Shown: one piece after another, positions 2,137 through 16,780 of the stretch
Position numbering within the stretch: the first letter of the stretch is position 1
Layout: the number at the start of each line of letters is the position of its first letter
Assembly (NCBI GenBank): GCA_001180065.1
Contig: CVSM01000148.1
Coordinates: forward strand, 1 to 34,671
Reading direction: 5' to 3'
DNA from: Candidatus Pelagibacter communis
Lineage (GTDB): Bacteria > Pseudomonadota > Alphaproteobacteria > Pelagibacterales > Pelagibacteraceae
DNA length: 34,671 nucleotides
Notes under the pieces: generated by a model
The model's input: only the letters and a program-made list of their open reading frames with translations
Told to the model about the DNA's origin: nothing
Database searches by the model: none
Program-made: the position numbers and the translations under genes

Positions 2137-2137
2137 T

Positions 2138-3301
2138 TTATTTCTTTAATGCTGCTACTGCTTTATTTGCGGCATCCTCTAAAGTGTTAGCTTCAATATA
2201 ATTTAATTTACTGTCTCGAAGAATCTTATTTCCCTTCTCAACGTTAGTTCCGGCTAATCTTATCACTAATGGAACTTTGATTTCTATTTTCTTAAGTGCT
2301 TGAACTATTCCTTCAGCAACCCAATCACATCTATTAATTCCTGCAAAAATATTTACTAAAATAACTTTAACTTTCTTATCCATAGTTATGAGTCTAAAAG
2401 CTTTTACTATTTTTTCAGGTGTTGCTCCCCCACCTACGTCAAGAAAATTAGCTGGCTCTCCACCTGCTAATTTAATCATGTCCATTGAAGCCATTGCAAG
2501 GCCAGCACCGTTAATAATATTTCCAATATTTCCATCTAAACTTACATAATTAAGACCTCTATCAGACGCATAAACTTCTTTATCATCCTCTTGAGTTTTA
2601 TCTCTAAGCTCAGAGACTTTGTCTCTTCTAAACATAGCGTTATTATCAAAACTCATTTTACAATCTAATGCTAATATCTGTTTCTGTTTTGAAATTACCA
2701 AAGGATTTACTTCAACCATTGTAGCATCTAATTCACTAAAAGCTTTAGCGCAACCAACAATAGTTTCTGAGGCTCTTCTAATTAATTCTGGTTCAATGCC
2801 TAATCCAAAAGCAAGTTCTCTTGCTTGAAAACTTTGAATACCAACAGCAACCTCGATTTTTGATCTTATAATTGACTCTGGTTTTTCTTTAGCAATTTCT
2901 TCCACACTCATTCCTCCTTCAGTAGAAGCTACGACCATAATACTTTCTGAACTTCTATCAAAAACTAAACCTAAATATAATTCTTTTTCAATATCAGTTG
3001 CTTCCTCAATATAAATTCTATTAACTATTTTTCCTTGGGGGCCAGTTTGATTTGTAACTAATTTTTTACCTAAAAGCTTATCTGTCGCTTGAGCAACCTC
3101 TAAAGGTGAATTACAAACAATCACTCCACCCGCTTTACCTCTTGCGCCTGAGTGTATTTGTGCTTTAACTACCCATTTTGATCCACCAATTTCTCTAGCT
3201 TTGTTTTCAGCTGTCTCTGGACTGTAAACTATTCCTCCTCTTGGTATAGTGACCCCAAAACTTGATAATATTTCTTTTGCTTGGTATTCGTGAATATCCA
3301 T
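2138..3301 (-). CDS. mtkA: Malate-CoA ligase (malate thiokinase) beta subunit
   Basis: A 387-residue ATP-grasp subunit starting MDIHEYQAKEIL, with the SGARGKAGGV nucleotide loop (about 52-61), the KELYLGLVFDR segment, VEVNPL, and the C-terminal CoA-ligase domain beginning LNYVSLDGNIGNIINGAGLAMASMDM. Two segments separate it from SucC: NIFAGINRCDWVAEGI (SucC usually has NIFGGI.RCD..A.G) and VRLAGTNVEKGNKIL (SucC usually VRLEGTN). Both match methylotroph MtkA as remembered. It sits between mcl, 3 bases upstream, and mtkB, one base downstream, which is the classic serine-cycle gene set. Paralogy with the TCA-cycle enzyme is obvious, and dual substrate use is possible. Confidence 0.87.
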   Translation of the reverse strand: MDIHEYQAKEILSSFGVTIPRGGIVYSPETAENKAREIGGSKWVVKAQIHSGARGKAGGVIVCNSPLEVAQATDKLLGKKLVTNQTGPQGKIVNRIYIEEATDIEKELYLGLVFDRSSESIMVVASTEGGMSVEEIAKEKPESIIRSKIEVAVGIQSFQARELAFGLGIEPELIRRASETIVGCAKAFSELDATMVEVNPLVISKQKQILALDCKMSFDNNAMFRRDKVSELRDKTQEDDKEVYASDRGLNYVSLDGNIGNIINGAGLAMASMDMIKLAGGEPANFLDVGGGATPEKIVKAFRLITMDKKVKVILVNIFAGINRCDWVAEGIVQALKKIEIKVPLVIRLAGTNVEKGNKILRDSKLNYIEANTLEDAANKAVAALKK

Positions 3302-3304
3302 AAT

Positions 3305-4243
3305 TTATTTATTATTTATTTGCTTATCTATATTAACAATATTTTCTGCCATTCTAGCTGATGCAGCATCTATCATCCTTCCATCAAGTTGTGCAGCACC
3401 TTTTCCAGCTTTTGCGGCCTTTTCAAGTTCTTCTAAAATTCTTTTTGCTTTAGTTACTTCTGATGAAGGAGGAGAAAAAACTTTATTTGCAAGTTCGATT
3501 TGTGAAGGATGTATTGCCCATTTTCCCTCTATACCAATAGCAGCTCCTCTTTTTGCAGCTTCTATATAAGCATCAGGATCATTGAAATCACCAAATGGGC
3601 CATCAATTGCTCTTAAACCATAAGCTCTGCATGTCATAACTAATTGTGAAAGTCCGTGATGCCATTGATCACCTGGATAGTCTGGGTTCAATCCTCCTAT
3701 AACGACAGTTCTTGCCCTTAAACTTGCAGCATAATCTGCAACTCCAAAATGTAAAGCCTCGAGTCTATCACTTGACTTCGCAATTTCTTTTATATTTGAC
3801 ATTCCTAATGCGGTTTCAATTAAGCATTCTATTCCTATTTTATTATTTAATTTTTTACTTGTTTCTATTTGTGTTAATAAACAATCAATCATATAAACGT
3901 CACTAGCTGTACCGGCTTTAGGTAAAAGAATTGTATCAAGTTTTTCCCCAACTTCCTCAACTATGTCAATTAGATCTCTATACATATAATAAGTATCTGG
4001 ACTATTAATTCGAACTGAAATTGTTTTTCCCTTTTCTCTCCAATTTATTTCTTTCAAAGCTTTGATAACGTTTTGTCGAGCTGAAATCTTATCCATCGGT
4101 GAAACTGCATCTTCTAAATCTAAAAAAATATAGTCGGCTTTAGAATTTAATGCTTTTTCAAACATTTCTGGAGATGACCCTGGGACCGCAAGTTCACTTC
4201 TTTGCAGTCTTGATTTTGCAGGTTTATAATACTTAAAACTCAT
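3305..4243 (-). CDS. mcl: Malyl-CoA lyase (HpcH/HpaI aldolase, CitE-like superfamily)
   Basis: A 312-residue TIM-barrel lyase. Visible motifs are RSELAVPGSSPEMFEKAL at the N-terminus, YIFLDLEDAVSP with the acidic metal-binding residues (about 39-49), SVRINSPDT, ILLPKAG, the GIECLIETALG metal-ligand glutamate segment, LHFGVADYAASL, AIDGPFGDF and GKWAIHPSQ. The GPFGDF and KWAIHPSQ pattern is that of Mcl from Rhodobacter and Methylorubrum. The enzyme splits malyl-CoA into glyoxylate and acetyl-CoA or runs the reverse condensation. It is the first gene of the operon with mtkA and mtkB, giving both steps between malate and glyoxylate plus acetyl-CoA. The promoter must lie in the AT-rich divergent spacer shared with the FAD oxidoreductase gene. 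Related beta-methylmalyl-CoA activity is possible. Confidence 0.88.
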   Translation of the reverse strand: MSFKYYKPAKSRLQRSELAVPGSSPEMFEKALNSKADYIFLDLEDAVSPMDKISARQNVIKALKEINWREKGKTISVRINSPDTYYMYRDLIDIVEEVGEKLDTILLPKAGTASDVYMIDCLLTQIETSKKLNNKIGIECLIETALGMSNIKEIAKSSDRLEALHFGVADYAASLRARTVVIGGLNPDYPGDQWHHGLSQLVMTCRAYGLRAIDGPFGDFNDPDAYIEAAKRGAAIGIEGKWAIHPSQIELANKVFSPPSSEVTKAKRILEELEKAAKAGKGAAQLDGRMIDAASARMAENIVNIDKQINNK

Positions 4244-4380: not shown

Positions 4381-5709
4381 ATGTCAAAAATACCAAATAA
4401 AGCTAAAGTAGTAATTATTGGTGGAGGCATTCACGGGCTAAGCACTGCCTGGAAATTATCAGAAAAATACAAAAATCCTGGTGACATTGTTGTTTTAGAA
4501 AAAAAAGATACTGCTGCTGGAGCTAGTGGAATAGCTTGTGGAGTTATAAGAAATAATTATTTCCAGCCAGCTATGAGAGAATTAATGGCTCATTCTGTTT
4601 CAGTATGGGAGAGTGATCCAAAAGCATTTAAATATAATGCAGTTGGATATTTACAAATATCACCTGAAGTCATGCATAAAGATGTTGCAACAATTTATGA
4701 ACAACAAAAAGCAATTGGTTACGACTCAGAATTTATCGAAGGTGAGAAAGATTGTATGAATTATATGAAAGGTATGTTTGATGACTGGCAGGCCCAAGGT
4801 ATAACTTCTGTTCTTCATGAAAAAAAAGGTGGATATGCATTTAATAAAGACTCTATAAAAGCCCTTGAAAATAAATCTACTTCAAATGGTGTCCAAGTTA
4901 TAAAAGGTGTTAGGGTTAACGGTTTTAAAAGAGGTAGTAATAGTAAAGCTGTTACAGGAGTTGAGACTGATAAAGGAACAATAGATTGTGAACAAGTAGT
5001 CATTGGTGCTGGACCATGGGCAAGAGATTTTTGGAATATGCTTGAGCTTCCAAAAACTGCTAACATAAAAGGTAAAGATGGAAAAATGCACACTACAGAT
5101 ATGTGGACTTATTGGATGTTACAAGAGGGAGTAATTGGTGTTGAACCAGATTTTTTAAAAATGAATAATGGTAAGGCTCCACCAGTAATACATGTAGACT
5201 CAACTGCTCCTTTATATTCAGACAAAACAAAAAAATTAATTACAGATAAAATTTGGGGTATTTATTATAAACCTGATATTGATGGTTTGGGTGTTCAAGG
5301 TGGTACCTCGCCTTACATTGTTGATAAACATTTTGATGAAGTAAATGTTGATCCTTACGGAATAGAGTCTCCAGAGTATCAAACCACTGAGGCATTCAAT
5401 GATATGTGGTGTTCTGCTTTAGCTCACTGTCAAAAAAGGTTTGAAGGGAAATCGGATTTATACAGAAAAGGTCCATCAGGTGGGCTTGGATGTATGACCC
5501 CAGACTCTTTTCCAATATTTGATAGATTTTTAGAAAATGTTTATATGATAGCAGATGCTAATCATGGATATAAAATGATTGGTGTTGGAGAATTGGTAGC
5601 TAAAGAAATTCTCGGTACTGAAAGTGATTTATTAAAACCATTTAGATTCAACCGTTACGAGAAGGGTGAACTTCACCCTACTTCGAACAGTCCGTTTCCT
5701 TGGAGTTAA
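4381..5709 (+). CDS. FAD-dependent oxidoreductase, DAO family (sarcosine oxidase/N-methyl amine dehydrogenase-like)
   Basis: A 442-residue flavoprotein. The ATG at 4381 is preferred to an in-frame TTG at 4345, because the FAD-binding Rossmann fold begins right after it: VVIIGGGIHGLSTAW (10-24), with Glu40 ending strand two as expected for FAD ribose binding. The ASGIACGVIRNNY segment (48-60) lies where covalent or near-flavin residues occur in the DAO family. The C-terminus has the standard GGLGCMTPDSFPIF and MIADANHGYKMIGVGELVAKEIL. The family oxidises the N-CH bond of secondary or tertiary amines such as sarcosine, dimethylglycine and N-methylglutamate. It precedes a glutamine-synthetase-like gene and mgsABC on the same strand, suggesting oxidation of an N-methylated amino acid. 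None of the other sarcosine oxidase/MgdABCD subunits is nearby. The exact substrate is open. Confidence 0.82.
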   Translation: MSKIPNKAKVVIIGGGIHGLSTAWKLSEKYKNPGDIVVLEKKDTAAGASGIACGVIRNNYFQPAMRELMAHSVSVWESDPKAFKYNAVGYLQISPEVMHKDVATIYEQQKAIGYDSEFIEGEKDCMNYMKGMFDDWQAQGITSVLHEKKGGYAFNKDSIKALENKSTSNGVQVIKGVRVNGFKRGSNSKAVTGVETDKGTIDCEQVVIGAGPWARDFWNMLELPKTANIKGKDGKMHTTDMWTYWMLQEGVIGVEPDFLKMNNGKAPPVIHVDSTAPLYSDKTKKLITDKIWGIYYKPDIDGLGVQGGTSPYIVDKHFDEVNVDPYGIESPEYQTTEAFNDMWCSALAHCQKRFEGKSDLYRKGPSGGLGCMTPDSFPIFDRFLENVYMIADANHGYKMIGVGELVAKEILGTESDLLKPFRFNRYEKGELHPTSNSPFPWS

Positions 5710-5779
5710 ACTTCAAGCCTAGACACTAATAAATTTTTCAGTTACGCTTGACTAAATTTATAATTGATTGAGGGGAAAA

Positions 5780-7249
5780 ATGACTGATTTAGAAAAACAT
5801 GTAAACCGACCAGGTAGGGATAAACAAGTCAAAAAAGTTAGAGAAAAAATAAACGAATTAGGAATAACATATATTTATTATCAGTTTATTTCCGTCACAG
5901 GAAGAGTAGTTGGAAAGGGAATACCAGCTGATCATTGGGAAAGAACTGCTGAAAAAGGTTTCCAATTAGTTTATGGAGCAACAGCTAACCTATTTCTAGA
6001 TCGACACAACAACTATATTGGTTATGGACCAGAGGCAATGGAATTAGTTGGAATTCCAGATCCTGAAACTTTTTGTCAGTTACCATGGGATAAAAGAGTA
6101 GGAAGAGTTTTTGTAACTTGTTTTAGAAATAGAGAAGAAAGAAATAATCCTGGTGGACATTTAACTTCTGATTGCAGAGGAAATTTAAGAATTTTCATGG
6201 ATGAATTCCAAAAGAAACATGGTTTAGAATTAAGAGTTGGAACTGAGCCTGAAATGATGTGGCTTACTAAAAATGATGATGGAACTCCTACAGGAAAAGG
6301 TTTTTCAAAACCGTTTTGCTACCATATAGACCAATTTGAGTCGTTGAGACCTGTATTTATGAAAGTAATTGAGTATGCAAAAGCAATGGGTCTAGATATG
6401 ATACAAGGAGATCATGAGGATGCACCAGGTCAATTAGAGTTGAATTGGACTTTTGATAATGTTTTAAGGAATGCCGATAGGTTATCAACTTATAGACAGA
6501 TATGTGCACAAGTTGCAAGAGAACACAATTTAATTGCATGTTTTATGACAAAACCTTTTATGGGTGTTTCTGCTAGTGGTTGTCATACAAATATGTCTTT
6601 ATGGAAAGGTGGTAAAGTTAAAACAAATAAACTTGGTCATAAATCTTTACCAGGTGTTGAAGAAGTTTTTGGCTATGTTGAAGGTGGAACAAATACTTTT
6701 ATGCCAGATACAAAGGATATGCAATTACCTGGAAAAATCGGTTTACAATCAATCGCGGGCATTATGGAACATTTACCGGCTTTAACAGCGTTAGGATCTT
6801 CAACTGTAAACTCGTATAGAAGATTATGGGATCAAGGTTTCTGGGCACCTGTATACGCTGATTGGGGATACCAAAATAGAACTTGTGGATTAAGAGTATC
6901 TGCTCCAGGAAGATTTGAATACAGATCTGTAGACTCGATGCATAACCCATATCTTTTAGGTGCTGCTTTGCTTAAAGCTTGCGATGAAGGAATTTCTAAA
7001 AAAATGAAACCTGCTGCTCCTGAGTCAAGAAATATATATGAAGCTCAAAAAGCTGGAAAGGATGTAAAAAAACTTCCTTTGAGCTTAGGAGAAGCATTAG
7101 AGAGATTAGCAGAGGATGAAGTAATTAAGTCTGCAATGCCAGATGAGATGTATAAAGTGTTTCATTGGTATAAAAATGATGAGTGGGAAAGATTCCTTGG
7201 AGCAACAACACAATGGGATCTTGATACTTATTTGGATTGCTTACCTTAA
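5780..7249 (+). CDS. Glutamine-synthetase-fold ligase (glutamine or gamma-glutamylamide synthetase)
   Basis: The ATG at 5780 with AGGGG seven bases upstream is chosen over a TTG at 5768, giving 489 residues. All main glutamine synthetase catalytic blocks are present: EPEMMW (156-161), GDHEDAPGQLELNW (210-223), SGCHTNMS (266-273), NSYRRL (344-349), NRTCGLR (366-372) and RFEYR (378-382). The family joins glutamate to ammonia or a primary amine using ATP. Being immediately upstream of mgsA (24 bases), it would supply glutamine or gamma-glutamylmethylamide to the split glutamate synthase. It is clearly different from the second ligase at 12894, with an extra segment around residues 290-320 and a longer N-terminus. 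Whether it is the GMA synthetase or a glutamine or other gamma-glutamylamide synthetase cannot be settled from sequence alone. Confidence 0.85.
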   Translation: MTDLEKHVNRPGRDKQVKKVREKINELGITYIYYQFISVTGRVVGKGIPADHWERTAEKGFQLVYGATANLFLDRHNNYIGYGPEAMELVGIPDPETFCQLPWDKRVGRVFVTCFRNREERNNPGGHLTSDCRGNLRIFMDEFQKKHGLELRVGTEPEMMWLTKNDDGTPTGKGFSKPFCYHIDQFESLRPVFMKVIEYAKAMGLDMIQGDHEDAPGQLELNWTFDNVLRNADRLSTYRQICAQVAREHNLIACFMTKPFMGVSASGCHTNMSLWKGGKVKTNKLGHKSLPGVEEVFGYVEGGTNTFMPDTKDMQLPGKIGLQSIAGIMEHLPALTALGSSTVNSYRRLWDQGFWAPVYADWGYQNRTCGLRVSAPGRFEYRSVDSMHNPYLLGAALLKACDEGISKKMKPAAPESRNIYEAQKAGKDVKKLPLSLGEALERLAEDEVIKSAMPDEMYKVFHWYKNDEWERFLGATTQWDLDTYLDCLP

Positions 7250-7273
7250 ACTAAAAAGATATAGGGGAAATAT

Positions 7274-8218
7274 ATGTGCGGAATAGCGGGATTAATTCAT
7301 AGAGGAAAATCATCAAAAGTTGGTCATGAACTTCAAGGTATGTTGCAAGCGCTAAAACATCGAGGAGAGGACTCTACTGGTTATGCTTTATACGGAGATA
7401 CAGATGGAAAAAATTTCATTATGAGATTTAAAGTTGGAGAAAACGTTGGTGAAGGTAGCACATCAGTTGCTGAAGACATATCTGTTTACGATGAAAGAAA
7501 AAAAATCGTAGACAGTTATCTTTTAGAAATGGGTGCAAAAATTATTAAAGAGGAGAGAATACTTCCCTACTCTTTAAGATACGAAATAGAATATAACAAA
7601 AAAGATTTACTAGAGTTTTCTCAAAAAATAGAGAGCATTCCGGGTGTTGAAATACTATCAATGGGTAAATCTTTAGAGGTAATTAAAGATCTAGGAAATG
7701 CAAAAATGGTTTGTGACAGATACAATCTTGATAAACTTGTTGGCACTCATGCAATAGGACACGCAAGAATGGCAACTGAATCAGGTGTAGATATTAAATC
7801 TGCTCACCCATTTTGGGGCTATCCTTTTAGTGATGTATCTGTTGTACACAACGGTCAGCTCACAAATTATTGGAATAATAGAAGAGCTTTAGAAAATAAA
7901 GGTATGAGATTTATGTCTGAATGTGATTCAGAACTTATTGCAGTTTATTTAGCTGAAAAAATGAGAGAAGGAGCATCATTAGAAGAAGGTATGAAAGAGT
8001 CTCTCTCAGGATTAGATGGTGTATTTACTTATTTTGTTGCAACGAAAGACTCTTTGGGAATGGCAAAGGATACAATGGCAGCTAAGCCTTTAGTTTTATA
8101 TGAGTCAGATGATTTGGTAGCGATGGGTTCAGAGGAAATAGCAATTAGATCTATTTTACCACAAGAAATTGATACTTATGATCCATTTGATGGAGAGGTA
8201 AAAGTATGGCAAATATAA
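7274..8218 (+). CDS. mgsA: Class II glutamine amidotransferase subunit of split glutamate synthase / N-methylglutamate synthase
   Basis: A 314-residue Ntn-hydrolase domain. Met-Cys-Gly-Ile at the start places the nucleophile Cys2 for exposure after methionine removal, and a clear AGGGGAAA ribosome site precedes the ATG. Other family marks are LKHRGEDSTGYA, GHARMATESG (the Arg that binds the gamma-glutamyl carboxylate), VVHNGQLTNY and the SECDSE segment. In GlxB/MgsA-type systems this domain stands alone instead of forming the N-terminus of GltB, and releases ammonia or methylamine from glutamine or gamma-glutamylmethylamide. Its 3' end overlaps the next gene by 13 bases, indicating translational coupling with mgsB. 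The symbol glxB is an equally valid name if the real substrate is glutamine. Confidence 0.88.
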   Translation: MCGIAGLIHRGKSSKVGHELQGMLQALKHRGEDSTGYALYGDTDGKNFIMRFKVGENVGEGSTSVAEDISVYDERKKIVDSYLLEMGAKIIKEERILPYSLRYEIEYNKKDLLEFSQKIESIPGVEILSMGKSLEVIKDLGNAKMVCDRYNLDKLVGTHAIGHARMATESGVDIKSAHPFWGYPFSDVSVVHNGQLTNYWNNRRALENKGMRFMSECDSELIAVYLAEKMREGASLEEGMKESLSGLDGVFTYFVATKDSLGMAKDTMAAKPLVLYESDDLVAMGSEEIAIRSILPQEIDTYDPFDGEVKVWQI

Positions 8219-9060
8219 AAAGTGTTTCAAAAAAAACTAAAGCCCAAGCTATGGGTATGCATACTGAAGTTTTAACTGGAAGAACGCAACAAAAATTCTT
8301 CAATCCTGATGAAGCTGAAAACTTTTATTATTTTGGAACATACGATGTTGATTTTAATAAAAGAACAGACCTAGATGTAAAAGATATGACCGCAGCAGAA
8401 GCAAATAAAGAAATAGATAATTTAATGAGTCAAGGTTATGGAACTATTGTTATTAAAAACCCACAAGGAAAACATAGTTTGGGAGTAGGAATATTAAATA
8501 AATTAAATTTAATTTTTGAGGGAAGTTTAGGATATTTTGGAATGGGTTCATGTGATGGTCCAATTGTTAGAATCAATGGAAGAGTTGGCTGGTCATGTGC
8601 TGAAAATTTAATGGCAGGTAAGGTTGTAATTGAAAAAAATGCTGGATCTTGTTTTGGAGCTGCTATTAGAGGTGGTGATTTAATTTGTAAAGGCAGTGTA
8701 GGTGCAAGAACAGGCATTGATATGAAAGGCGGCACGATAATTATAGGTGGTGATGCTGGCGCATTTACTGGATTTATGATGCAAAGAGGGAGAATTATAA
8801 TATTAGGAAATGTCGGGATAAATCTTGGTGATTCGATGTATGATGGGACAATTTTCGTAGGTGGAGAAATTGGTTCATATGGTAGTGATGCAGTAGATTC
8901 GGAGTTAACTAAGAGCGATCAAGATTGGTTAAGAAGAAAACTTAAGGTTGCTGAAATTGGTGAAAGTTTTGATGTGAGTAAAATGAAAAAAATTGTAGCA
9001 GGTAAGAAACTATGGAACTACGATAATTTGGAACCTACTGAGAAAAAAGGAGCAATTTAA
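8206..9060 (+). CDS. mgsB: GXGXG beta-helix subunit of split glutamate synthase / N-methylglutamate synthase
   Basis: A 284-residue protein beginning inside the last codons of mgsA. Residues from about 95 onward form the right-handed beta-helix seen at the C-terminus of GltB, with repeating glycine pairs about every 20 residues: GSLGYFGMG, GRVGWSCAENL, GSCFGAAIRGG, GSVGARTGI, GGDAGAFTGFMM, GNVGINLGDSM, GGEIGSYG. This domain has a structural role, holding the ammonia tunnel between the amidotransferase and FMN domains in glutamate synthase. In Rhizobium-type glx clusters and methylotroph mgs clusters it is a separate polypeptide, as here. The stop overlaps the next start (TAATG), so the three subunits are probably made in equal amounts. 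Confidence 0.87.
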   Translation: MANIKSVSKKTKAQAMGMHTEVLTGRTQQKFFNPDEAENFYYFGTYDVDFNKRTDLDVKDMTAAEANKEIDNLMSQGYGTIVIKNPQGKHSLGVGILNKLNLIFEGSLGYFGMGSCDGPIVRINGRVGWSCAENLMAGKVVIEKNAGSCFGAAIRGGDLICKGSVGARTGIDMKGGTIIIGGDAGAFTGFMMQRGRIIILGNVGINLGDSMYDGTIFVGGEIGSYGSDAVDSELTKSDQDWLRRKLKVAEIGESFDVSKMKKIVAGKKLWNYDNLEPTEKKGAI

Positions 9061-10478
9061 TGGCTAAGAAAAAAAAGAAAAAAAATGGTAAATTAAAAAC
9101 TAATGGTAACGTCGGTGGTAAAGCAGATGTTCACTTAAGTTCAAACGGTGGAAGAAACAAAAGCTTACTTGGTCATAATGCTATTTTTACGCCAGAGGTA
9201 ATTGATGACATTCATATTAAATCTCAGTTAGGCAGATACAGAATGCGTGGAATGGCATTAATGAAAAAAATTCCAACATTTGATGATCTAGTATTTTTAC
9301 CAGGCACACTTACAAGATTTGTAATAGAAGGTTATAGAGAAAAGTGTGAAACAAAAACTGTTATTGGACCAAGATGTGAAAATCCTATTGAATTAGATAT
9401 TCCAGTTTATATTACTGGTATGAGTTTTGGTGCATTATCTTATGAAGCAAAAACTGCATTAGCCAGAGGAGCAACAATGGCTGGTAGTGCAACATGTTCA
9501 GGTGAAGGTGGAATGATACCTGATGAGAGAAGATATTCAGAAAAATGGTTCTATCAATGTATTCAATCAAGATATGGTTTTAACCCACACCATGCACAAC
9601 TTGCAGATGGAATAGAGGTGTTTATTGGACAAGGACAAAAAGTTGGTATGGGTGGTCACTTAATGGGTCAAAAAGTAACTGATCAAGTTGCAGAAATGAG
9701 ATCATTACCCTCAGGTATTGACCAGAGATCTCCTGCAAGACATCCTGATTGGTTAGGTCCTGATGATTTAGCTTTAAAAGTAGAGGAACTAAGACAGTTA
9801 ACGAAAAATAAAGTGCCAATACAATTAAAATTAGGTGCATCAAAAGTTTATGATGATGTTCGTATGGCAGCTAAATGTGATCCTGATTCTATATATCTTG
9901 ATGGTATGGAAGGATCAACTGGAGCAGGTCCGCACATTGCTGCTGCTAATACTGGAATTCCAGGTATTGCGGCAATAAGAGAAGCTAGAAGAGCATTAGA
10001 TGATGTAGGAAAAACAGGAAAAGTTACATTAATTTATGCTGGTGGAGTAAGAGATGGAGCTGACATGGCAAAAGCATTGGCTTTAGGTGCAGACGCAATA
10101 GCTATCGGTACTGGTTCTATGATTGCACTAAACTGTAACAAAGATATTCCAGAAGCAAATTTTGAAAAAGAAATGGGAGTAAAAGCAGGTGAATGTTATC
10201 ACTGTCATACTGGAAGATGCCCTGTAGGAGTTGCTACACAAGATCCAAAATTAAGAGCAAGATTAAATCCTGATGATGCAGCATTGAGAGTTTATAATTA
10301 TTTACATTCAATGACTCTTGAAGCCCAGTTGTTAGCTAGAGCTTGTGGAAAAACAAATATACATTCTTTAGAACCTGAAGACTTAGCAGCGCTAACTTCT
10401 GAAGCATCAGCATTAGCTAAAGTACCATTAGCAGGAACAAACTATACTGTTGGAGTTGATAACTTTCACAAAATCTAA
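9060..10478 (+). CDS. mgsC: FMN/iron-sulfur catalytic subunit of split glutamate synthase / N-methylglutamate synthase
   Basis: A 472-residue TIM-barrel protein of the GltB central/FMN domain family. It has ITGMSFGALSYEAKTALARGA (substrate channel start), the GEGGMIPDERRYS segment, QLKLGASKVYDDVRMAAKC, DGMEGSTGAGPH, and the FMN phosphate-binding YAGGVRDGADMAKALALGADAIAIGTG. The cysteine cluster CYHCHTGRCPVGVATQ fits the [3Fe-4S] site of glutamate synthase. The N-terminus carries an unusual run of lysines (MAKKKKKKNGK). The subunit condenses channelled ammonia or methylamine with 2-oxoglutarate and reduces the imine. No GltD-like NADPH subunit occurs nearby, so electrons presumably come from ferredoxin or another donor. 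glxD is the alternative name. Confidence 0.88.
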   Translation: MAKKKKKKNGKLKTNGNVGGKADVHLSSNGGRNKSLLGHNAIFTPEVIDDIHIKSQLGRYRMRGMALMKKIPTFDDLVFLPGTLTRFVIEGYREKCETKTVIGPRCENPIELDIPVYITGMSFGALSYEAKTALARGATMAGSATCSGEGGMIPDERRYSEKWFYQCIQSRYGFNPHHAQLADGIEVFIGQGQKVGMGGHLMGQKVTDQVAEMRSLPSGIDQRSPARHPDWLGPDDLALKVEELRQLTKNKVPIQLKLGASKVYDDVRMAAKCDPDSIYLDGMEGSTGAGPHIAAANTGIPGIAAIREARRALDDVGKTGKVTLIYAGGVRDGADMAKALALGADAIAIGTGSMIALNCNKDIPEANFEKEMGVKAGECYHCHTGRCPVGVATQDPKLRARLNPDDAALRVYNYLHSMTLEAQLLARACGKTNIHSLEPEDLAALTSEASALAKVPLAGTNYTVGVDNFHKI

Positions 10479-10486
10479 AGGAATTA

Positions 10487-10888
10487 ATGGCAAAAAAGAA
10501 AAAAAACAAATCAAAATCAACTTCACTTCAATTAGGTAAGAAGAAAGAAACAGCTAGAGAAAAAATGATTGGTCAGTCAATTGGCTATCGATATGATGTA
10601 AATCTTTTACCTGATTATAAAAAAATGACTCCATTTTTAAAAAAATATGTAGAAGCGATGGGTTGGGATGATCTTAATTGGTTGGAAGATGTTCATATGG
10701 GTTATGAAGAAGGAAGACCTGCTGTATTTTGCAGAAATGCAAATGGATGGGTTACAATTCCATCATCAATTAAGTTACCAGACAATCAACAAGACAGAGA
10801 TATGATAGCAAGAGAACTTTTAGTTAAATTTCAAATGTCACCAAAACATCCTCTTGTTGATTTGAAAAAAGCATACTTAAAATTTTAA
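10487..10888 (+). CDS. Uncharacterised 133-residue protein co-transcribed with mgsABC
   Basis: I do not recognise this family. It begins 8 bases after mgsC with a good AAAGGA ribosome site, and a terminator follows at once, so it is the last gene of the mgs operon. The N-terminus is strongly basic (MAKKKKNKSKS, with further KKK and basic residues to about 28) and resembles the lysine-rich start of MgsC. The rest looks globular and soluble: YDVNLLPDYKKMTPFLKKYVEAMGWDDLNWLEDVHMGYEEGRPAVFCRN with many aromatic and acidic residues, then GWVTIPSSIKLPD and a C-terminal helix. There is no signal peptide, membrane segment or metal-binding cysteine cluster. A partner or assembly factor of the synthase is a reasonable guess from position alone. 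Confidence 0.75.
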   Translation: MAKKKKNKSKSTSLQLGKKKETAREKMIGQSIGYRYDVNLLPDYKKMTPFLKKYVEAMGWDDLNWLEDVHMGYEEGRPAVFCRNANGWVTIPSSIKLPDNQQDRDMIARELLVKFQMSPKHPLVDLKKAYLKF

Positions 10889-10916
10889 TTACACAATCTA
10901 AAGTTGATTCTTTTTT

Positions 10917-10946
10917 AAAACCTATTGTCAATATTAGGTTTTATTC
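10917..10946 (+). terminator. Rho-independent terminator between mgs operon and amt
   Basis: Perfect 8-bp stem AAAACCTA / TAGGTTTT (10917-10924 with 10935-10942) with a 10-base loop, running into TTTTATT on the plus strand. It lies 28 bases after the stop of the 133-residue gene. It implies that amt, starting at 11013, has its own promoter in the remaining spacer. That spacer is too AT-rich for me to call the promoter boxes with confidence. Confidence 0.65.
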
Positions 10947-11012
10947 AATTGTTTCGTTTGTAACAGCTATCGAAATTTTATAGGGTTTTAAAAACTAATA
11001 TGGAGAGAGAAT

Positions 11013-12413
11013 ATGACTGATCAGTTAACTGCTCTTACTACCATATTTACAGAATTTTACTACTGGGTCACGGTAGTACTGATGTTTTTAATTCACGTCG
11101 GATTCTGTATGTATGAAGTTGGAGCTTCTCGTTATAAACACCATCAACATACTCTTATGAAAAACACAATGCTGATACCACTGGTAACAGTAACTTGGTT
11201 TTTATTTGGTTGGTGGATTTACTGGGCTTTCCCAACAGGACCGGGATTAGCACCTTCAATTATGAATGAAAGTACCGCTCTAATTACAGATGACTCTGCA
11301 TTTAGTGCTACGTGGTACACTGCTACAAGTGAGTTGATGGCAATCAATTTAGGAGATCACATTTCTGGTGTCTTCTGGGCTGCTTTCCTACTCTTCTCAT
11401 GGACGGCTGCTTCCATTGTTTCAGGAGCAATTATTGAAAGAATAACAACTTTCGCATTTGGTATTTTAGCAATTGCGATTGGCTCTGTGTTCTGGACAAT
11501 TGATGCTGCTTGGGGATGGCACTTTGATGGTTGGATGTTAAAACTTTTAGGATATCATGATGCCTATGCGTCAGGAGTAATTCATGCAATTGCTGGTGGA
11601 TTTGCTTTAGGAGTTCTAATGGTTTTAGGACCAAGAATTGGAAAATTCTCATCAAGTGGTGAGCCAAGAAATATTGGACCAAGAAATCCTTGGCTAGTAA
11701 CAATTGGATTGTTTCTAATTTATACTGGTTTCTGGGGATTTTATGCGGCATGTAATATACCAATATTTGATCTTGGGCCTGAGTACGGTATGGAAGGTAT
11801 ATCTTATTGGACAGCAACAAACATATACGTAACCCCTACTACACTTAGTGGTATTACTTTTAACTTCTTGATGTCACTATCAGGAGGATTATTAGCCGGT
11901 TATTGGATTGCAAAAGGTGATCCTTTCTGGACATACTCTAGTGGACTAGCAGGTATCATATGTGCTTCAGCTGGAAATGATTTATATCATCCAATTCAAG
12001 CAATGATCATTGGTATGATCGGTGTTGTGATTTCATACAAACTACATTATTGGGTTGAGCGTAAGTTCAAAATTGATGATGCAGTTGGTGCAGTTGCAGT
12101 TCACGGTTATGCTGGATTTATTGGTCTAGTGATATGCGGTTTCGTTCTAAATGGTTATCCTTCATCTGGATACAGTGTGGGAGCTATGTGGGATGGAACT
12201 ACTTATGCAACAATTAACCCATTAGGACAATTCATAGGAGCATTAATAATGTTCGTAGTTCTTGGACTAATACCAGGCTATGTCATAGCTAAAGTTCTTC
12301 ACGGGATGGGCAAATTAAGAATTCCGCGGGAAGTAGAAATAGCTGGACTAGACTATGAAATGATGGAAACTGCTAAATCAGATGAGAAAGCAGTTGCATC
12401 AGCAACCAGGTAA
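11013..12413 (+). CDS. amt: Amt-family ammonium/methylammonium transporter (divergent)
   Basis: A 466-residue polytopic membrane protein with about eleven hydrophobic segments. The pore twin histidines are identifiable in GVIHAIAGG and AVHGYAGFIG, and GAIIERI corresponds to the conserved GA.AER of Amt proteins. The protein is not a close AmtB relative. The usual aromatic gate segment is replaced by FWAAFLLFSWTAAS, the region after TM2 is rich in tryptophan, and the C-terminal tail has GLDYEMM instead of the canonical GLD..EHGE. The start is supported by GGAGAGAG a few bases upstream. Its location between mgs genes and a type III glutamine synthetase suggests uptake of ammonium or methylammonium for this cluster. 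No glnK/PII gene is adjacent. Confidence 0.88.
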   Translation: MTDQLTALTTIFTEFYYWVTVVLMFLIHVGFCMYEVGASRYKHHQHTLMKNTMLIPLVTVTWFLFGWWIYWAFPTGPGLAPSIMNESTALITDDSAFSATWYTATSELMAINLGDHISGVFWAAFLLFSWTAASIVSGAIIERITTFAFGILAIAIGSVFWTIDAAWGWHFDGWMLKLLGYHDAYASGVIHAIAGGFALGVLMVLGPRIGKFSSSGEPRNIGPRNPWLVTIGLFLIYTGFWGFYAACNIPIFDLGPEYGMEGISYWTATNIYVTPTTLSGITFNFLMSLSGGLLAGYWIAKGDPFWTYSSGLAGIICASAGNDLYHPIQAMIIGMIGVVISYKLHYWVERKFKIDDAVGAVAVHGYAGFIGLVICGFVLNGYPSSGYSVGAMWDGTTYATINPLGQFIGALIMFVVLGLIPGYVIAKVLHGMGKLRIPREVEIAGLDYEMMETAKSDEKAVASATR

Positions 12414-12424
12414 AGGAGTAATAT

Positions 12425-12655
12425 ATGGCGACAGTTACAAATTGGATTGATCACCTAAACAAACCAGCAGAAGAAGTTGTTGGTGCTGTTTATCCTGGTG
12501 CTGGATCTAGTGAAGGTATACTTGTTATACTGGCTATACTTTTATGGGTTGGTTGGACTGTTTTAACTGCCAAATCTGAGAGCGATGAGCTTGACAGATT
12601 GGGTAGAAAAAGACATGGTCCAAATGACCATAAAAGCAACATTACCGATTGGTAA
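12425..12655 (+). CDS. Small single-pass membrane protein following amt
   Basis: A 76-residue protein starting 11 bases after amt with an AAAGGAG ribosome site at ideal spacing. One hydrophobic segment is visible (about residues 29-47, ILVILAILLWVGWTVLTA), preceded by a short soluble N-terminus with a Gly/Ala/Pro-rich stretch and followed by a charged tail (KSESDELDRLGRKRHG). By the positive-inside rule the tail is probably cytoplasmic. I do not recognise the family. Tight coupling to amt and the terminator immediately after it argue for a two-gene unit, so it may assist or regulate the transporter. That is inference from position. Confidence 0.78.
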   Translation: MATVTNWIDHLNKPAEEVVGAVYPGAGSSEGILVILAILLWVGWTVLTAKSESDELDRLGRKRHGPNDHKSNITDW

Positions 12656-12673
12656 TTTAAACTAAAAAAATTT

Positions 12674-12707
12674 GGGCACTGTGATAAGCAGTGCCCATTT
12701 TTATTTC
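12674..12707 (+). terminator. Strong rho-independent terminator after the amt unit
   Basis: Perfect 8-bp GC-rich stem GGGCACTG / CAGTGCCC (12674-12681 with 12689-12696), 7-base loop TGATAAG, and tail ATTTTTATTT. It is the clearest terminator on the plus strand and lies 19 bases after the 76-residue gene. The next small gene starts only about ten bases beyond the tail. Confidence 0.9.
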
Positions 12708-12717
12708 TTTACTAATA

Positions 12718-12876
12718 ATGTCTGAAGAAGATAATAAGAACGAAGAATTAAGACCAACCAAAATGCGTGGTGTGGTTTTTCCTAAAGCAAAGTATGGTGT
12801 AATTATTGCAATTATAATAATTATCTGTGTTAATTTGATTTTATATAAAGAAACAATTTTTTCTTTTTTTAAATAA
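12718..12876 (+). CDS. Small membrane protein, 52 residues
   Basis: An ATG at 12718 opens a 52-residue frame. A longer frame from a GTG at 12691 is rejected because that codon lies in the terminator stem. The protein has a charged N-terminus (SEEDNKNEELRPTKMRG) and one strongly hydrophobic stretch (about 30-43, YGVIIAIIIIICVNLIL), with a short basic-aromatic C-terminus. No clear Shine-Dalgarno sequence is present. It lies between the terminator and the GTG of the type III glutamine synthetase gene, 17 bases away. I do not recognise a family. The amino acid pattern looks like a real small membrane protein, but AT-rich sequence can produce such frames by chance. Confidence 0.5.
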   Translation: MSEEDNKNEELRPTKMRGVVFPKAKYGVIIAIIIIICVNLILYKETIFSFFK

Positions 12877-12893
12877 CTATGTTAGTTTAATTT

Positions 12894-14219
12894 GTGCCAA
12901 AAAATTTATTTAAAATTGCTAAAGAAAAAAAGATTAAATATTTTTTAATTAGTTTTGTTGATCTATTTGGGGTTTTAAGATCAAAATTAGTCCCGGCACA
13001 TGCAATAAAGGAAATGCAAGAAACTGGTGCCGGGTTTGCCGGGTTTGCTGCATGGTTAGATATGACACCTGCAGACTCAGACATGTTTGGAATTCCAGAT
13101 CCTGATAGTCTAATTCAATTACCTTGGAATAAGGAAGTAGGTTGGCTTGCATCAGATCTTTGGATGAATGGTAAACCAGTAGAAGCCTCACCAAGAGTGA
13201 TGTTAAAGAAACAAATCAAAAAACTCTCAAAACATGGTCTAGTCATGAAATCTGGAGTAGAATGTGAATATTTTCTAATATCTCCTGATGGAAATTCAAT
13301 TGCAGATCCAAGAGATACTCAATCAAAACCTTGTTACGATCAATCAGCGTTAATGAGAAGATATGACTTAATAAAAGAAATTTGTGATTGTATGATTGAG
13401 ATGGGATGGGGTCCTTATCAAAATGATCACGAGGATGCTAATGGTCAATTTGAAATGAATTGGGATTACTCAGATTGTTTAAAGACAGCAGACAGACATA
13501 CATTCTTTAAGTACATGGTAAAAACTATTTCTGAAAAACATGGCTTAAGAGCAACGTTTATGCCTAAACCATTTGAAAATTTAACTGGAAATGGTTGTCA
13601 TGCCCACATTTCTGTTTGGGATGGTAAAAAAAATAAATTTTTGGATAAATCTAATGAATTAGGACTTAGCAAAATGGCATATAATTTTTTAGGTGGAGTA
13701 ATAAAGCACGCTTCATCTTTATCTGCTTTTTTTAACCCTACAATTAATAGTTATAGAAGAATCAATGCACCTCCAACAAAATCAGGGGCATCGTGGTCAC
13801 CGAGTAGTATATCTTACACTGGTAATAACAGAACTCATATGATTAGAATTCCTGACCCAGGAAGGTTTGAATTAAGATTAATGGATGGATCGGCTAATCC
13901 CTATTTACTTCAAGCGAGTGTTCTTGCAGCTGGAATAAACGGTATTAAAAATAAGATAGATCCTGGTAAACCTCTAAATTGTAATATGTACGAAGATTTT
14001 GCCAAATATCCAAATCTCCCAAAACTTCCTGATCAATTAGATCAATCTTTAAAACAATTAAAACAAAATAAAGAGATGAACGATGCATTTGGTGATGATG
14101 TAATCAATAGTTATATAAAGCTTAGAAGCACAGAAATTAAGGAATTTGATAATGTAGAGAAATTTGATAAGTCAAAACCTATTACTAAATGGGAAAGACA
14201 AAATACTCTAGATTGCTAA
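12894..14219 (+). CDS. glnT: Type III glutamine synthetase family protein (GlnT / gamma-glutamylmethylamide synthetase)
   Basis: A 441-residue ligase starting at GTG; the nearest upstream ATG is followed by a stop. The N-terminus KYFLISFVDLFGVLRSKLVP and GAGFAGFAAWLDMTP match the type III (GlnT) group, to which methylotroph GmaS belongs as I recall. Catalytic blocks are complete: GVECEYF (121-127), NDHEDANGQFEMNW (177-190), GNGCHAHIS (232-240), NSYRRI (285-290), NRTHMIRIP (312-320) and RFELRLMDG. The reaction is ATP-dependent ligation of glutamate with ammonia or methylamine. In rhizobia glnT lies with glxBCD; here the equivalent mgsABC lies a few kilobases upstream with amt between. GmaS is a serious candidate function, and sequence alone does not separate it from GlnT. 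Confidence 0.87.
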   Translation: MPKNLFKIAKEKKIKYFLISFVDLFGVLRSKLVPAHAIKEMQETGAGFAGFAAWLDMTPADSDMFGIPDPDSLIQLPWNKEVGWLASDLWMNGKPVEASPRVMLKKQIKKLSKHGLVMKSGVECEYFLISPDGNSIADPRDTQSKPCYDQSALMRRYDLIKEICDCMIEMGWGPYQNDHEDANGQFEMNWDYSDCLKTADRHTFFKYMVKTISEKHGLRATFMPKPFENLTGNGCHAHISVWDGKKNKFLDKSNELGLSKMAYNFLGGVIKHASSLSAFFNPTINSYRRINAPPTKSGASWSPSSISYTGNNRTHMIRIPDPGRFELRLMDGSANPYLLQASVLAAGINGIKNKIDPGKPLNCNMYEDFAKYPNLPKLPDQLDQSLKQLKQNKEMNDAFGDDVINSYIKLRSTEIKEFDNVEKFDKSKPITKWERQNTLDC

Positions 14220-14220
14220 A

Positions 14221-15354
14221 GTGAAAAGCTTAAAAATTCTTAAAAGCTGGAAATATAAAAAATTATTAAGAAATAGTAATTATAGTTTTAAAAGAAAATA
14301 TGTTTTAAAACATCTCCCCTCCTCATTGATCTCTAATGCCTATAAATCAATTTCAAGTTGGAAAAATTATAAAGCAACTCCTCTTTTATCACTTGATAAA
14401 TTAAAGAAAAATTTAAAATTAAATAATATTTTTTACAAAGATGAATCTAAAAGATTTCATTTGAAGTCTTTTAAGGCTTTGGGAGGAGCATACGCTGTAG
14501 AAAGAATATCTAGAGGAAGAAGAAATATTATTATTTCGTCAGCAACTGCTGGTAACCATGGTAGATCTGTTGCTTGGGGTGCAAAAAGATTAAATTTAAA
14601 GTGTAAAATATTTGTAAGTCAATATGTAAGTCAAACAAGAGTCCATGAAATACAAAAATTTGGTGCCGAGGTAATAAGGGTTAAGGGAAACTATGAAAAT
14701 TCTTTGCAAGAATGTAAAAGACTTTCAAAAAAAAATAATTGGCAAATTGTTCAAGACGTTTCTACCAAAAATTATAGATATATTCCTCAACTTACTATGG
14801 CTGGATATTCAATTATGATAAAAGAAATATCTAAACAAACAAATCATTACATAACACACATTTTCATTCAAGCTGGTGTTGGAGGATTAGCTGCAGGTGT
14901 AGTTGCTGGGGTAGCAAAATATTTTAAAAGAATTCCAAAAATAATTATTGTTGAACCTGAAAGAGCGGATTGTGTTCTTCAGAGTGTAAAAGCAAATAAA
15001 CTAAAAAAAATAAGAATAAAAAAAGAGAGTATTATGGGTGGAATGTCATGTAATGAAATGTCACTTGTTCCATGGCAAATATTAAAAAAAACTTCTGACT
15101 ATTGTGTATCTGTTGCCGACAATAATGTTGCTAAAACAACTGCAATGCTAAAAGACAAGAAGTTGAGCAAAGCCTCAATAATTGGAGGTGAATGTGCAAC
15201 TCCTGGAGTTATTGCTCTTATAGGTTTAGCTAACAATCTTAAGGCTAGGAAATTACTGAATTTGAGGGAAGATTCCAACGTTCTTGTCATTGGATGCGAA
15301 GGAAATGCAGATGTAAAACTTTATAAACAACTGTTATCTAAGGGAAGAAAATAA
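14221..15354 (+). CDS. PLP-dependent diaminopropionate ammonia-lyase-like enzyme
   Basis: A 377-residue fold-type II PLP enzyme starting at GTG one base after the stop of glnT, so the two are co-transcribed. The order of motifs follows E. coli YgeX/DpaL: TPLLSL, KDESKRFHLKSFKALGGAYA with the Schiff-base lysine at Lys85, SATAGNHGRSVAWGA, the QDVSTKNYRYIPQLTMAGY segment, AGVGGLAAGVVAGV as the phosphate glycine loop, IVEPERADC, and IGGECATPGVIAL near the end. DpaL releases two ammonia molecules from 2,3-diaminopropionate. Threonine dehydratase-like or other amino acid ammonia-lyase activity is possible. Position next to a nitrogen-assimilating ligase fits an ammonia-releasing catabolic role. The N-terminus is unusually rich in lysine and serine. 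Confidence 0.78.
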   Translation: MKSLKILKSWKYKKLLRNSNYSFKRKYVLKHLPSSLISNAYKSISSWKNYKATPLLSLDKLKKNLKLNNIFYKDESKRFHLKSFKALGGAYAVERISRGRRNIIISSATAGNHGRSVAWGAKRLNLKCKIFVSQYVSQTRVHEIQKFGAEVIRVKGNYENSLQECKRLSKKNNWQIVQDVSTKNYRYIPQLTMAGYSIMIKEISKQTNHYITHIFIQAGVGGLAAGVVAGVAKYFKRIPKIIIVEPERADCVLQSVKANKLKKIRIKKESIMGGMSCNEMSLVPWQILKKTSDYCVSVADNNVAKTTAMLKDKKLSKASIIGGECATPGVIALIGLANNLKARKLLNLREDSNVLVIGCEGNADVKLYKQLLSKGRK

Positions 15355-15361
15355 TATTTAT

Positions 15362-16780
15362 ATGACAAAAAATGGAATAGCCTGGATCAGGGAAGATTTT
15401 AGAATTGAGCATAACCCTGCTCTTTCATTTGCATCTCAGAATCATGAAAATGTACTTGCTCTATATATCTATAACAAAAATGAATTCGATAATAAAAGAG
15501 AGGCGCAAAAGTGGTGGCTCTATAAATCTTTAGAAAAATTTAAATTAGAACTTTCTAAATTCAAAATTAATTTACAAATATTAGAGGGAGATGAACTTGA
15601 TATTTTTTCTAAAATAAAAAAAAAAGATAATGTTTCAGTTTATTGGAATAAAATCTATGAACCAGATGTAATCGCAAAGGGTAAAAAAATTCGAGATATA
15701 TTTATAAAAAATGAAATACAATATAAATATTTTAAAGGAAACATTCTTAATGAATTTCAAGAGATAACTAAAAGTGATGGAACTCCATTCAAAGTATTTA
15801 CTCCTTTTTGGAAAAATGCTGAGCAAAAATTTTTAAGTTTACCACCAATTAAGAATTATATTGTAAAAAAAAAAATAAAAACACTATCTTTTTTTAAAAA
15901 TTGTATCGAGCCAAAAAAAATTCTTCCAAAAAACAATTGGTATAAAAAATTTGAAAATTATTGGAAAGTTTCTGAAAGCGACTCTATCAAAATACTCAAT
16001 AATCTAATTGATAATAAAATAAAAGATTATGGAACTGCTAGAGATTACCCATCTATCGAAGGAACATCTAAACTATCTCCTTATATTAAACATGGACAGA
16101 TTCATGTTAATACAATTTGGAAAAAATGTAGTGCATTAAAATCTAAAGGAGTTGGTTATAGAAAATATATTAATGAATTAGGATGGCGAGAATTTTCACA
16201 TAGTTTAATTAACTATTTTCCTGAGTTTTTAAAAGGAAACTATAGAAAAGAGTTCGACAAATTCCCTTGGGTTAAAAATGAAAAATTTTTAAAAGCATGG
16301 AAATCTGGGATGACAGGTTATCCAATTGTTGATGCTGGAATGAGAGAACTTTATGAAACAGGATGGATGCATAATAGAATAAGAATGGTTGTCGGATCTT
16401 TTTTGGTGAAACATTTAAGAATAAATTGGACTGAGGGAGAAAAACATTTTAGAAATTGTCTACTTGATTTTAATAAGGCTAATAATGTTGCTCAATGGCA
16501 ATGGGTCGCTGGTTGTGGTGCTGATGCAGCTCCTTATTTTAGAATATTCAACCCGATACTTCAGGGCGAAAAATTTGACAAAGAAGGTTTGTATGTAAAA
16601 AAATGGGTACCAGAACTAAAAAGAGTTCCATCTAAGTTTATCCACAAACCTTGGGAAATGGAACTCAAATATCAAGACGCTATTAAAACAATAATTGGAA
16701 AAGACTATCCTAAACCAATAGTAATTCATGAAGTTGCTCGCCAATCAGCTTTATCAGCTTTTCAAACTTTAAAAAAATAA
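15362..16780 (+). CDS. phrB: Deoxyribodipyrimidine photolyase (cryptochrome/photolyase family)
   Basis: A 472-residue flavoprotein repairing UV-induced cyclobutane pyrimidine dimers with blue light. The N-terminal Rossmann antenna domain starts GIAWIREDFRIEHNPAL. The FAD domain carries INELGWREFSH, the TGYPIVDAGMRELYETGWMHNR core (about 315-336), RMVVGSFLVKHLRINW and the diagnostic NNVAQWQWVAGCGADAAPYFRIFNP near residue 390. Tryptophans for the electron-transfer chain are present in this region. Length equals E. coli PhrB. It begins 7 bases after the ammonia-lyase gene and ends the plus-strand run. Linkage to amine genes is probably economy of genome layout rather than shared function. Blue-light receptor function is less likely, since no C-terminal extension exists. 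Confidence 0.93.
   Translation: MTKNGIAWIREDFRIEHNPALSFASQNHENVLALYIYNKNEFDNKREAQKWWLYKSLEKFKLELSKFKINLQILEGDELDIFSKIKKKDNVSVYWNKIYEPDVIAKGKKIRDIFIKNEIQYKYFKGNILNEFQEITKSDGTPFKVFTPFWKNAEQKFLSLPPIKNYIVKKKIKTLSFFKNCIEPKKILPKNNWYKKFENYWKVSESDSIKILNNLIDNKIKDYGTARDYPSIEGTSKLSPYIKHGQIHVNTIWKKCSALKSKGVGYRKYINELGWREFSHSLINYFPEFLKGNYRKEFDKFPWVKNEKFLKAWKSGMTGYPIVDAGMRELYETGWMHNRIRMVVGSFLVKHLRINWTEGEKHFRNCLLDFNKANNVAQWQWVAGCGADAAPYFRIFNPILQGEKFDKEGLYVKKWVPELKRVPSKFIHKPWEMELKYQDAIKTIIGKDYPKPIVIHEVARQSALSAFQTLKK

Follow-up and report, generated by a model that had tools for sequence, protein, structure and literature searches.

How do the SAR11 bacteria, described as the most abundant heterotrophs of the ocean (PMC3160333), deal with the dimethylamine (DMA) expected from demethylation of trimethylamine N-oxide (TMAO)? 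The DMA monooxygenase genes dmmDABC are reported to be absent from all SAR11 representatives, with no evidence of DMA oxidation, and this absence has been proposed as a metabolic bottleneck explaining DMA in marine aerosol (PMC5520151). Yet strain HTCC1062 is reported to grow, albeit weakly, on TMAO as sole nitrogen source without dmmDABC, and a DmmDABC isoenzyme was postulated (PMC8918994). Here we analysed a 34,671-nucleotide contig of Candidatus Pelagibacter communis (C148, hereafter ‘the window’; assembly of 834,822 bases, 71% complete), which holds the TMAO/methylated-amine island of a SAR11 bacterium. It harbours a unit of five genes encoding a divergent ligase of the glutamine synthetase (GS) fold (GSx), three subunits of a glutamate-synthase-like enzyme (set-1) and a 133-residue protein (u133). 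We give roughly even weight to the proposition that this unit, together with a flavin adenine dinucleotide (FAD) oxidase encoded upstream of it, carries out the DMA step in SAR11 by way of gamma-glutamyl-dimethylamide and N,N-dimethylglutamate. Among the papers listed by our searches of an open-licence library, judged by title and opening lines of the abstract, none gives these genes a DMA role or mentions N,N-dimethylglutamate as an intermediate in bacteria.

The GSx ligase and the set-1 synthase

The initial annotation, made from the DNA letters and their translations, had described a run of genes from a FAD oxidoreductase through a type III GS as a compact island for joining methylated amines to glutamate. 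The run is present as described (Table 1), its order is kept in relatives and is thus not due to chance, and the assignment to a methylated-amine/glutamate island is supported. The annotation had overlooked that a separate conserved unit, tied to the TMAO demethylase (Tdm), is formed by the first ligase together with its partners. We examined 20 GSx-type loci from genomes of the class Alphaproteobacteria, out of 45 genomes with a search match. GSx was 67–76% identical in 17 of these contexts, taken as orthologous, and in all 17 it was followed by the three set-1 genes and u133, the class-II glutamine amidotransferase (GATase) subunit being 53–60% identical throughout. The oxidase gene was found in 13 of the 17 (about 14–20 kb each), an Amt transporter gene in eight and tdm in three. 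The remaining three contexts (GSx-type proteins 61–63% identical) had neither set-1 nor u133 and, for this reason, are treated as a different subfamily. The u133 protein, 62–89% identical to the window copy in 15 other aligned sequences, had no Pfam or NCBIfam match, and its model (predicted local distance difference test [pLDDT] 73) had no PDB fold match at E 0.001. Ten neighbouring proteins were tested: eight were GntR/FCD regulators, one was of the IclR type and one was without a match.

The last gene of the run encodes, as judged by family score, structural match and pocket, GmaS, the gamma-glutamylmethylamide synthetase predicted to act on methylamine. Its product exceeds the TIGR03105 cut-off, has Rhodovulum GmaS as best PDB match (7CQL, E 4.7e-172) and keeps the pocket residues Lys30', Tyr147, Asp177, Glu186, Trp300 and Arg312 (numbered after the RhGmaS residues reported in PMC7948447). 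GSx has the fold and the amine-pocket residues in common with GmaS/type III GS (GlnT), but it is only about 27% identical to the window GmaS, fails the family cut-off and differs consistently at two positions (Ala48 to Val, Asn182 to Pro). Residues Lys30', Tyr147, Gln175, Asp177, Glu179, Glu186, Asn188, Trp300 and Arg312 are retained in the window copy and the 17 orthologues; the copy of relative G446, compared in the same way against a GlnA control, was likewise GmaS-type. By contrast, the control from the window's own genome, a protein named GlnA-like from its residues, has V, F, K, H, E, E, G, E and R at these nine positions and Asp at position 48. GSx carries Trp in place of the Glu flap and Val in place of the Asp50 ammonium residue of ammonia GS, whereas the GlnA-like protein has E and D. 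Because its pocket residues are GmaS-type, GSx looks like an alkylamine ligase rather than an ammonia GS, and the evidence for this is good; both ligases of the run are thus of the gamma-glutamyl-amine kind, as the initial annotation had held. With moderate confidence in DMA as the substrate, we regard GSx as a candidate gamma-glutamyl-dimethylamide synthetase. The comparison with rhizobial GlxBCD/GlnT, suggested earlier as a means of telling amine from ammonia enzymes, does not discriminate between them: GmaS-type residues are present in the single rhizobial GlnT/Glx set that was checked, which adjoins soxBDAG and so resembles an N-methylglutamate set too.

GSx-like genes 39–63% identical also occur in other contexts (loci L172, L173, L175, L196, L197 and L199), several of them with a second GS-like protein, a type-1 amidotransferase, an aldehyde dehydrogenase, an ABC transporter or a P450; these perhaps represent other gamma-glutamyl-amine pathways.

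The three genes that follow GSx had been read as mgsABC. Their order (GATase, GXGXG, flavin mononucleotide [FMN] glutamate synthase) is that of MgsABC, but tree and gene contexts place them in a paralogous group. In a tree of the FMN subunit (MgsC; 32 rows, with long outgroup branches and an unsure root), the canonical sequences of Aminobacter, Paracoccus aminophilus, Rhizobium, Sphingobium and two further rows grouped with a second set from relatives (set-2) in a group of 12 with support 100/100, while the 17 set-1 rows formed a separate group outside it (83/74). Of 61 genomes (the window organism and its relatives), 20 had the FMN subunit of set-1 at E 1e-60 and seven had a second FMN subunit, 51–52% identical to it; both occurred in four. 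Set-2 lies directly upstream of gmaS in G012, G034, G019 and G004, also upstream of gmaS in G446, and divergent beside gmaS in G050. In some relatives the canonical mgsABC sits between the small gene s76 and gmaS, an interval (amt to gmaS) that holds no synthase in the window. Nor is set-1 a set of three subunits adjoining gmaS, as u133 follows it in every orthologous context and the adjoining ligase is GSx. By tree position and context, then, the mgs-like genes of the window are assigned to a paralogous set, not to the canonical N-methylglutamate synthase.

Distribution of GSx, Tdm and Dmm

The left edge of the window cuts tdm. The remaining fragment scored 485 bits to NF053776 over positions 467–762 of 763; in relatives a full-length Tdm occupies the matching place, and full-length proteins of the same order scored 1075–1177 bits, some just below the 1100-bit cut-off. 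To describe the distribution of Tdm, GSx and Dmm we used a class sample of 385 alphaproteobacterial genomes, with thresholds of E 1e-180 for Tdm, E 1e-135 for GmaS and at least 66% identity for a GSx orthologue (G406 being counted from a fragment at a contig edge). GSx was found in 38 genomes, Tdm in 33, the family PF11927 in 49 and GmaS in 69; seven of the 45 genomes with a GSx match were not counted (G433, 63%; G326, 62%; G182, G198, G286, G312 and G363, 33–35%). P. aminophilus DmmC matches PF11927 with 236 bits, and the dmm genes of that organism are reported, by mutation, to be needed for growth on DMA (PMC4543880). PF11927 is a fair marker of DMA monooxygenase, although the family may be broader and its presence alone is no proof of Dmm. 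Three genomes with weak matches (G090, G319 and G397; 51–59 bits) were put aside from the 49.

GSx was present in 26 of the 33 Tdm genomes, a combination that spans 13 families. None of these 26 had a strong PF11927 match, as opposed to five of the seven Tdm genomes without GSx (G082, G219, G312, G343 and G370), giving a Fisher p of 9e-5 by genome, to be read, like the p values below, as a guide only, as genomes and families are not independent. By family, the chance of no overlap was 0.0016 (13 GSx, 4 Dmm and 18 Tdm families). Across all 385 genomes, strong PF11927 matches occurred in 0 of 38 GSx genomes versus 46 of 347 others (p 0.014), while Tdm and strong PF11927 showed no association overall (p 0.57). 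A sixth Tdm genome without GSx, G319, has one of the weak PF11927 matches, and its contig ends inside tdm.

The SAR11 order was sampled at a completeness of at least 80 plus the window's own genome. Of 73 genomes besides that one, 31 had Tdm, 31 had GSx and 30 had both; in G454, the sole GSx genome without Tdm, the contig breaks off within the oxidase gene. Among the 30 order genomes that carry the pair, 29 have the two genes no more than 8 kb apart; in the class sample, 14 of the 26 such genomes have them on a single contig at a distance of up to 18 kb. PF11927 had no match in 61 relatives (0/61). In a search of named genomes for the GSx family, the best 80 of 537 confirmed stretches all belonged to Pelagibacteraceae or Ca. 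Pelagibacter, which is the basis for assigning the window to SAR11, and a GSx search of viral contigs returned nothing. Taken together, the Tdm/GSx association is well supported.

A candidate route for dimethylamine and its alternatives

For the substrate, both intermediates and the roles of u133 and the oxidase, we infer the following scheme. Tdm converts TMAO to DMA and formaldehyde, and GSx would join DMA to glutamate at the expense of adenosine triphosphate (ATP), yielding gamma-glutamyl-dimethylamide. The set-1 synthase, with u133, would then move the amine to 2-oxoglutarate, the acceptor known from glutamate-synthase chemistry, to form N,N-dimethylglutamate. The FAD oxidase would take off one methyl group, giving N-methylglutamate and formaldehyde, and Mgd-type enzymes encoded by soxBDAG outside the window would take off the second, the nitrogen staying in glutamate. 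Free methylamine would enter through GmaS and pass to the canonical MgsABC where this is kept, and to set-1 elsewhere.

This chemistry is a proposal, a presumed variant of an N-methylglutamate-type pathway. Like the N-methylglutamate pathway proper (MgsABC-GmaS-MgdABCD, as in Aminobacter aminovorans pAA01 and Paracoccus aminophilus pAMI6), the cassette has a three-gene synthase of the same order, a GS-fold ligase whose amine pocket is made up of the same residues, and genes for N-methyl amino-acid oxidases or dehydrogenases nearby. Unlike it, the synthase does not fall among canonical MgsC sequences, comes with u133 as an additional conserved partner, is paired with GSx and mostly with the DAO-family oxidase, and tracks Tdm; in some relatives a canonical set stands alongside. 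The cassette is predicted to fill the step after Tdm at which DmmDABC (Ruegeria pomeroyi, P. aminophilus) acts, and the two systems are alternatives among the Tdm genomes sampled, but Dmm is a monooxygenase of several subunits, one of them from the haem N-demethylase-like family PF11927, and releases free methylamine, whereas the cassette would consist of an ATP-dependent ligase and a synthase. That it is a distinct secondary-amine pathway with u133 as a new subunit, by which SAR11 and other alphaproteobacteria that have Tdm but not Dmm degrade DMA with no monooxygenase at that step, is a broader claim that we make tentatively, as a real prospect somewhat short of an even one.

The model of the oxidase (mean pLDDT 79) matches the folds of sarcosine oxidase beta and dimethylglycine dehydrogenase with a template modelling score of about 0.6; the best family models cover only about residues 20–235, and the protein is unlike MgdA (about 25–27% identical over about 200 residues). 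The fold it is predicted to have in common with that family fits an N-methylated glutamate as substrate rather than free DMA, which makes it a candidate N-methyl/N,N-dimethyl-glutamate oxidase. The initial annotation had proposed a shortened pathway in which this enzyme and a GcvT-family protein at the left edge replace MgdABCD. This proposal finds no support. MgdABCD is indeed missing from the window, but not from the lineage: the ‘GcvT’ protein is Tdm, and Mgd-type genes lie just past the position of the window edge in complete relatives. In G446 and in the closed genome G012, soxBDAG is found about 18 kb upstream of tdm, with an MgdA 63–64% identical to that of Aminobacter; the MgdA of the other soxBDAG set of G012 is 54% identical to it. 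At most two soxA genes per relative exceeded the family cut-off, and the window's own genome (incomplete, with the window ending inside tdm) has one, in a soxBDAG set of the second kind. Among distant genomes, another soxBDA set stands beside the GSx unit at L184, L185 and L186, and a canonical-type set at L192. Five genomes with Tdm and GSx had no GmaS at E 1e-135 (G108, G131, G137, G233 and G329; 81–95% complete, three of them from one family), a possible fit to a route that reaches glutamate without passing through free methylamine, though incompleteness could explain part of it.

Several observations weigh against the DMA route. RhGmaS is reported to take DMA with a Michaelis constant far higher than that for methylamine (PMC7948447), and the pocket differences of GSx (A48V, N182P and neighbours) are no proof of a preference for DMA. 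With the weak PF11927 matches included (G090 and G397 having both Tdm and GSx), the contrast becomes 2 of 26 versus 6 of 7; G395 has Tdm but is devoid of both GSx and PF11927, and G326 combines its uncounted GSx-like gene with a strong PF11927 match. G045 (92% complete; L213), in which Tdm, the oxidase and Mgd-type soxBDA occur together and no GSx or set-1 was found, truly departs from the pattern if its assembly is not short of a contig. Twelve GSx genomes are without a full Tdm, a number that includes the window's own genome, in which tdm is cut. GmaS co-occurs with GSx in 29 of the 38 GSx genomes. In 16 of the 20 set-1 genomes (own included, many incomplete) a second synthase was not seen, while the window and others keep GmaS; set-1 would therefore also have to serve GmaS there, and may serve methylamine as well. 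Finally, given the co-occurrence with GmaS, the Tdm/GSx pattern could in part reflect a common methylamine niche, and the exclusion with Dmm could partly follow taxonomy.

Some of these points would also suit another, divergent N-methylglutamate pathway whose substrate is methylamine itself, with GSx and set-1 as alternative GmaS and MgsABC, perhaps of other affinity, and the DAO-family enzyme as N-methylglutamate oxidase. We judge this unlikely, if well worth weighing: the GmaS pocket kept in GSx, the position of set-1 nearer to canonical MgsC than to three outgroup rows and the canonical subunit unseen in those 16 genomes speak for it, but GmaS is retained beside GSx in the SAR11 contexts read to the island end, which would make such a pathway redundant, and the tracking of Tdm by GSx, the near exclusion with Dmm and the use of TMAO nitrogen by HTCC1062 without Dmm would be left unexplained. 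It is more doubtful still that the substrate of the unit is some different small amine, such as ethylamine or a further N-methyl amine, and that its inheritance together with Tdm merely reflects the marine amine users to which both belong; the 11 other GSx genomes without a full Tdm are in line with this, as is the related subfamily (52–63%), whose neighbours elsewhere include a second GS-like protein, ABC transporters or P450, while the tight physical linkage to Tdm and the near exclusion with Dmm among Tdm genomes argue against it. An ammonium pathway of GS and glutamate synthase plus Amt, in which GSx would make glutamine and set-1 glutamate from the ammonium of amine breakdown, is highly improbable despite the adjoining Amt and the domain families, as GSx is without the Glu flap and Asp50 of the GlnA-like protein and in the tree set-1 joins N-methylglutamate synthase rather than the GltB row.

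If the DMA route through GSx, set-1, u133 and the oxidase is correct, estimates of DMA turnover based on dmm counts need revising, and the bottleneck at DMA that has been reported for methylamine cycling in the ocean would be closed. With SAR11_1304–1309 of HTCC1062 as candidate, the question of the DMA enzyme becomes testable with a few cloned genes.

The gene run, its HTCC1062 counterparts and neighbouring genes

Table 1. Features of the methylated-amine island, in window coordinates.
Feature	Coordinates	Strand	Basis
Tdm (TMAO demethylase), C-terminal part, 297–298 aa	2..898	+	NF053776 match; contig end cuts gene
u116, small conserved protein after tdm, 116 aa	898..1248	+	no Pfam/NCBIfam match at 0.001
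DAO-family FAD oxidoreductase, SAR11_1304 equivalent	4381..5709 (ATG 4381; open reading frame from 4345)	+	PF01266
GSx, divergent GS-fold ligase, SAR11_1305 equivalent	5768..7249	+	TIGR03105, 290.9 bits, under cut-off 469.6
set-1 class-II GATase subunit, mgsA-like	7274..8218	+	PF13522
set-1 GXGXG subunit, mgsB-like	8206..9060	+	PF01493
set-1 FMN glutamate-synthase-domain subunit, mgsC-like	9060..10478	+	PF01645, 301 bits
u133, 133 aa, candidate extra subunit, SAR11_1309 equivalent	10487..10888	+	no Pfam/NCBIfam match
Amt-family transporter, SAR11_1310 equivalent	11013..12413	+	PF00909
s76, small protein, one hydrophobic stretch (by eye)	12425..12655	+	after amt in same-genus relatives
s61, small protein, hydrophobic stretch (by eye)	12691..12876	+	
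GmaS (type III GS), SAR11_1316 equivalent	12894..14219	+	TIGR03105, 626.5 bits, over cut-off 469.6

In G446, u133 ends at 1,245,731 and amt starts at 1,245,857; the gap between them (1245732–1245856) coincides exactly with that given for HTCC1062 between SAR11_1309 and SAR11_1310 (PMC2704228), and G446 was therefore regarded as either HTCC1062 itself or a copy. By gene order, Tdm corresponds to SAR11_1303, the oxidase to 1304, GSx to 1305, u133 to 1309, amt to 1310 and GmaS to 1316, the set-1 genes being assigned to SAR11_1306–1308 by count. PMC3160333 names 1303 a gcvT-like aminomethyltransferase, 1304 monomeric sarcosine oxidase, 1313–1315 glxBCD and 1316 glnT, and PMC5069961 calls SAR11_1305 glnT. 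A table in the latter, comparing sulfur-limited with control stationary cells, gives SAR11_1302 the values 0.22 and 0.62 and SAR11_1305 the values 0.19 and 0.78, each in the first and second value columns, respectively.

An Ala at the upper Phe-gate position of the Amt protein (by eye) was not taken to indicate methylamine transport, since the closest solved relative has a similar non-Phe stretch. On P. aminophilus pAMI6 (L237), Tdm is followed by a truncated haemoglobin gene and an ammonium transporter gene near dmmDABC, this transporter being only 24% identical to the window Amt.

Directly 3' of tdm, u116 (no family) is found in same-genus relatives and is 71–86% identical. Between u116 and the oxidase lies a variable cassette on the minus strand (1249–4243), with a malate-CoA ligase pair and a citE/malyl-CoA-lyase-like gene, which is present in the window and at L217, L218, L219 and L220, and absent at L033, L036, L037, L040, L042, L052 and L216. 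The L218 copy is accompanied by phosphoenolpyruvate (PEP) carboxylase (935 bits), and the cassette hints at serine-cycle parts in some SAR11. A Paraburkholderia plasmid (L204) has similar genes (60–63%) and a PEP-carboxylase-like gene near a GmaS-like, mgsABC and soxBDA set. On the other side of the island, in the stretch 14221–16780, a diaminopropionate ammonia-lyase-like pyridoxal phosphate enzyme comes after gmaS in 12 of 13 same-genus contexts, and a photolyase lies likewise 3' of the gmaS region in 10 of the 13.

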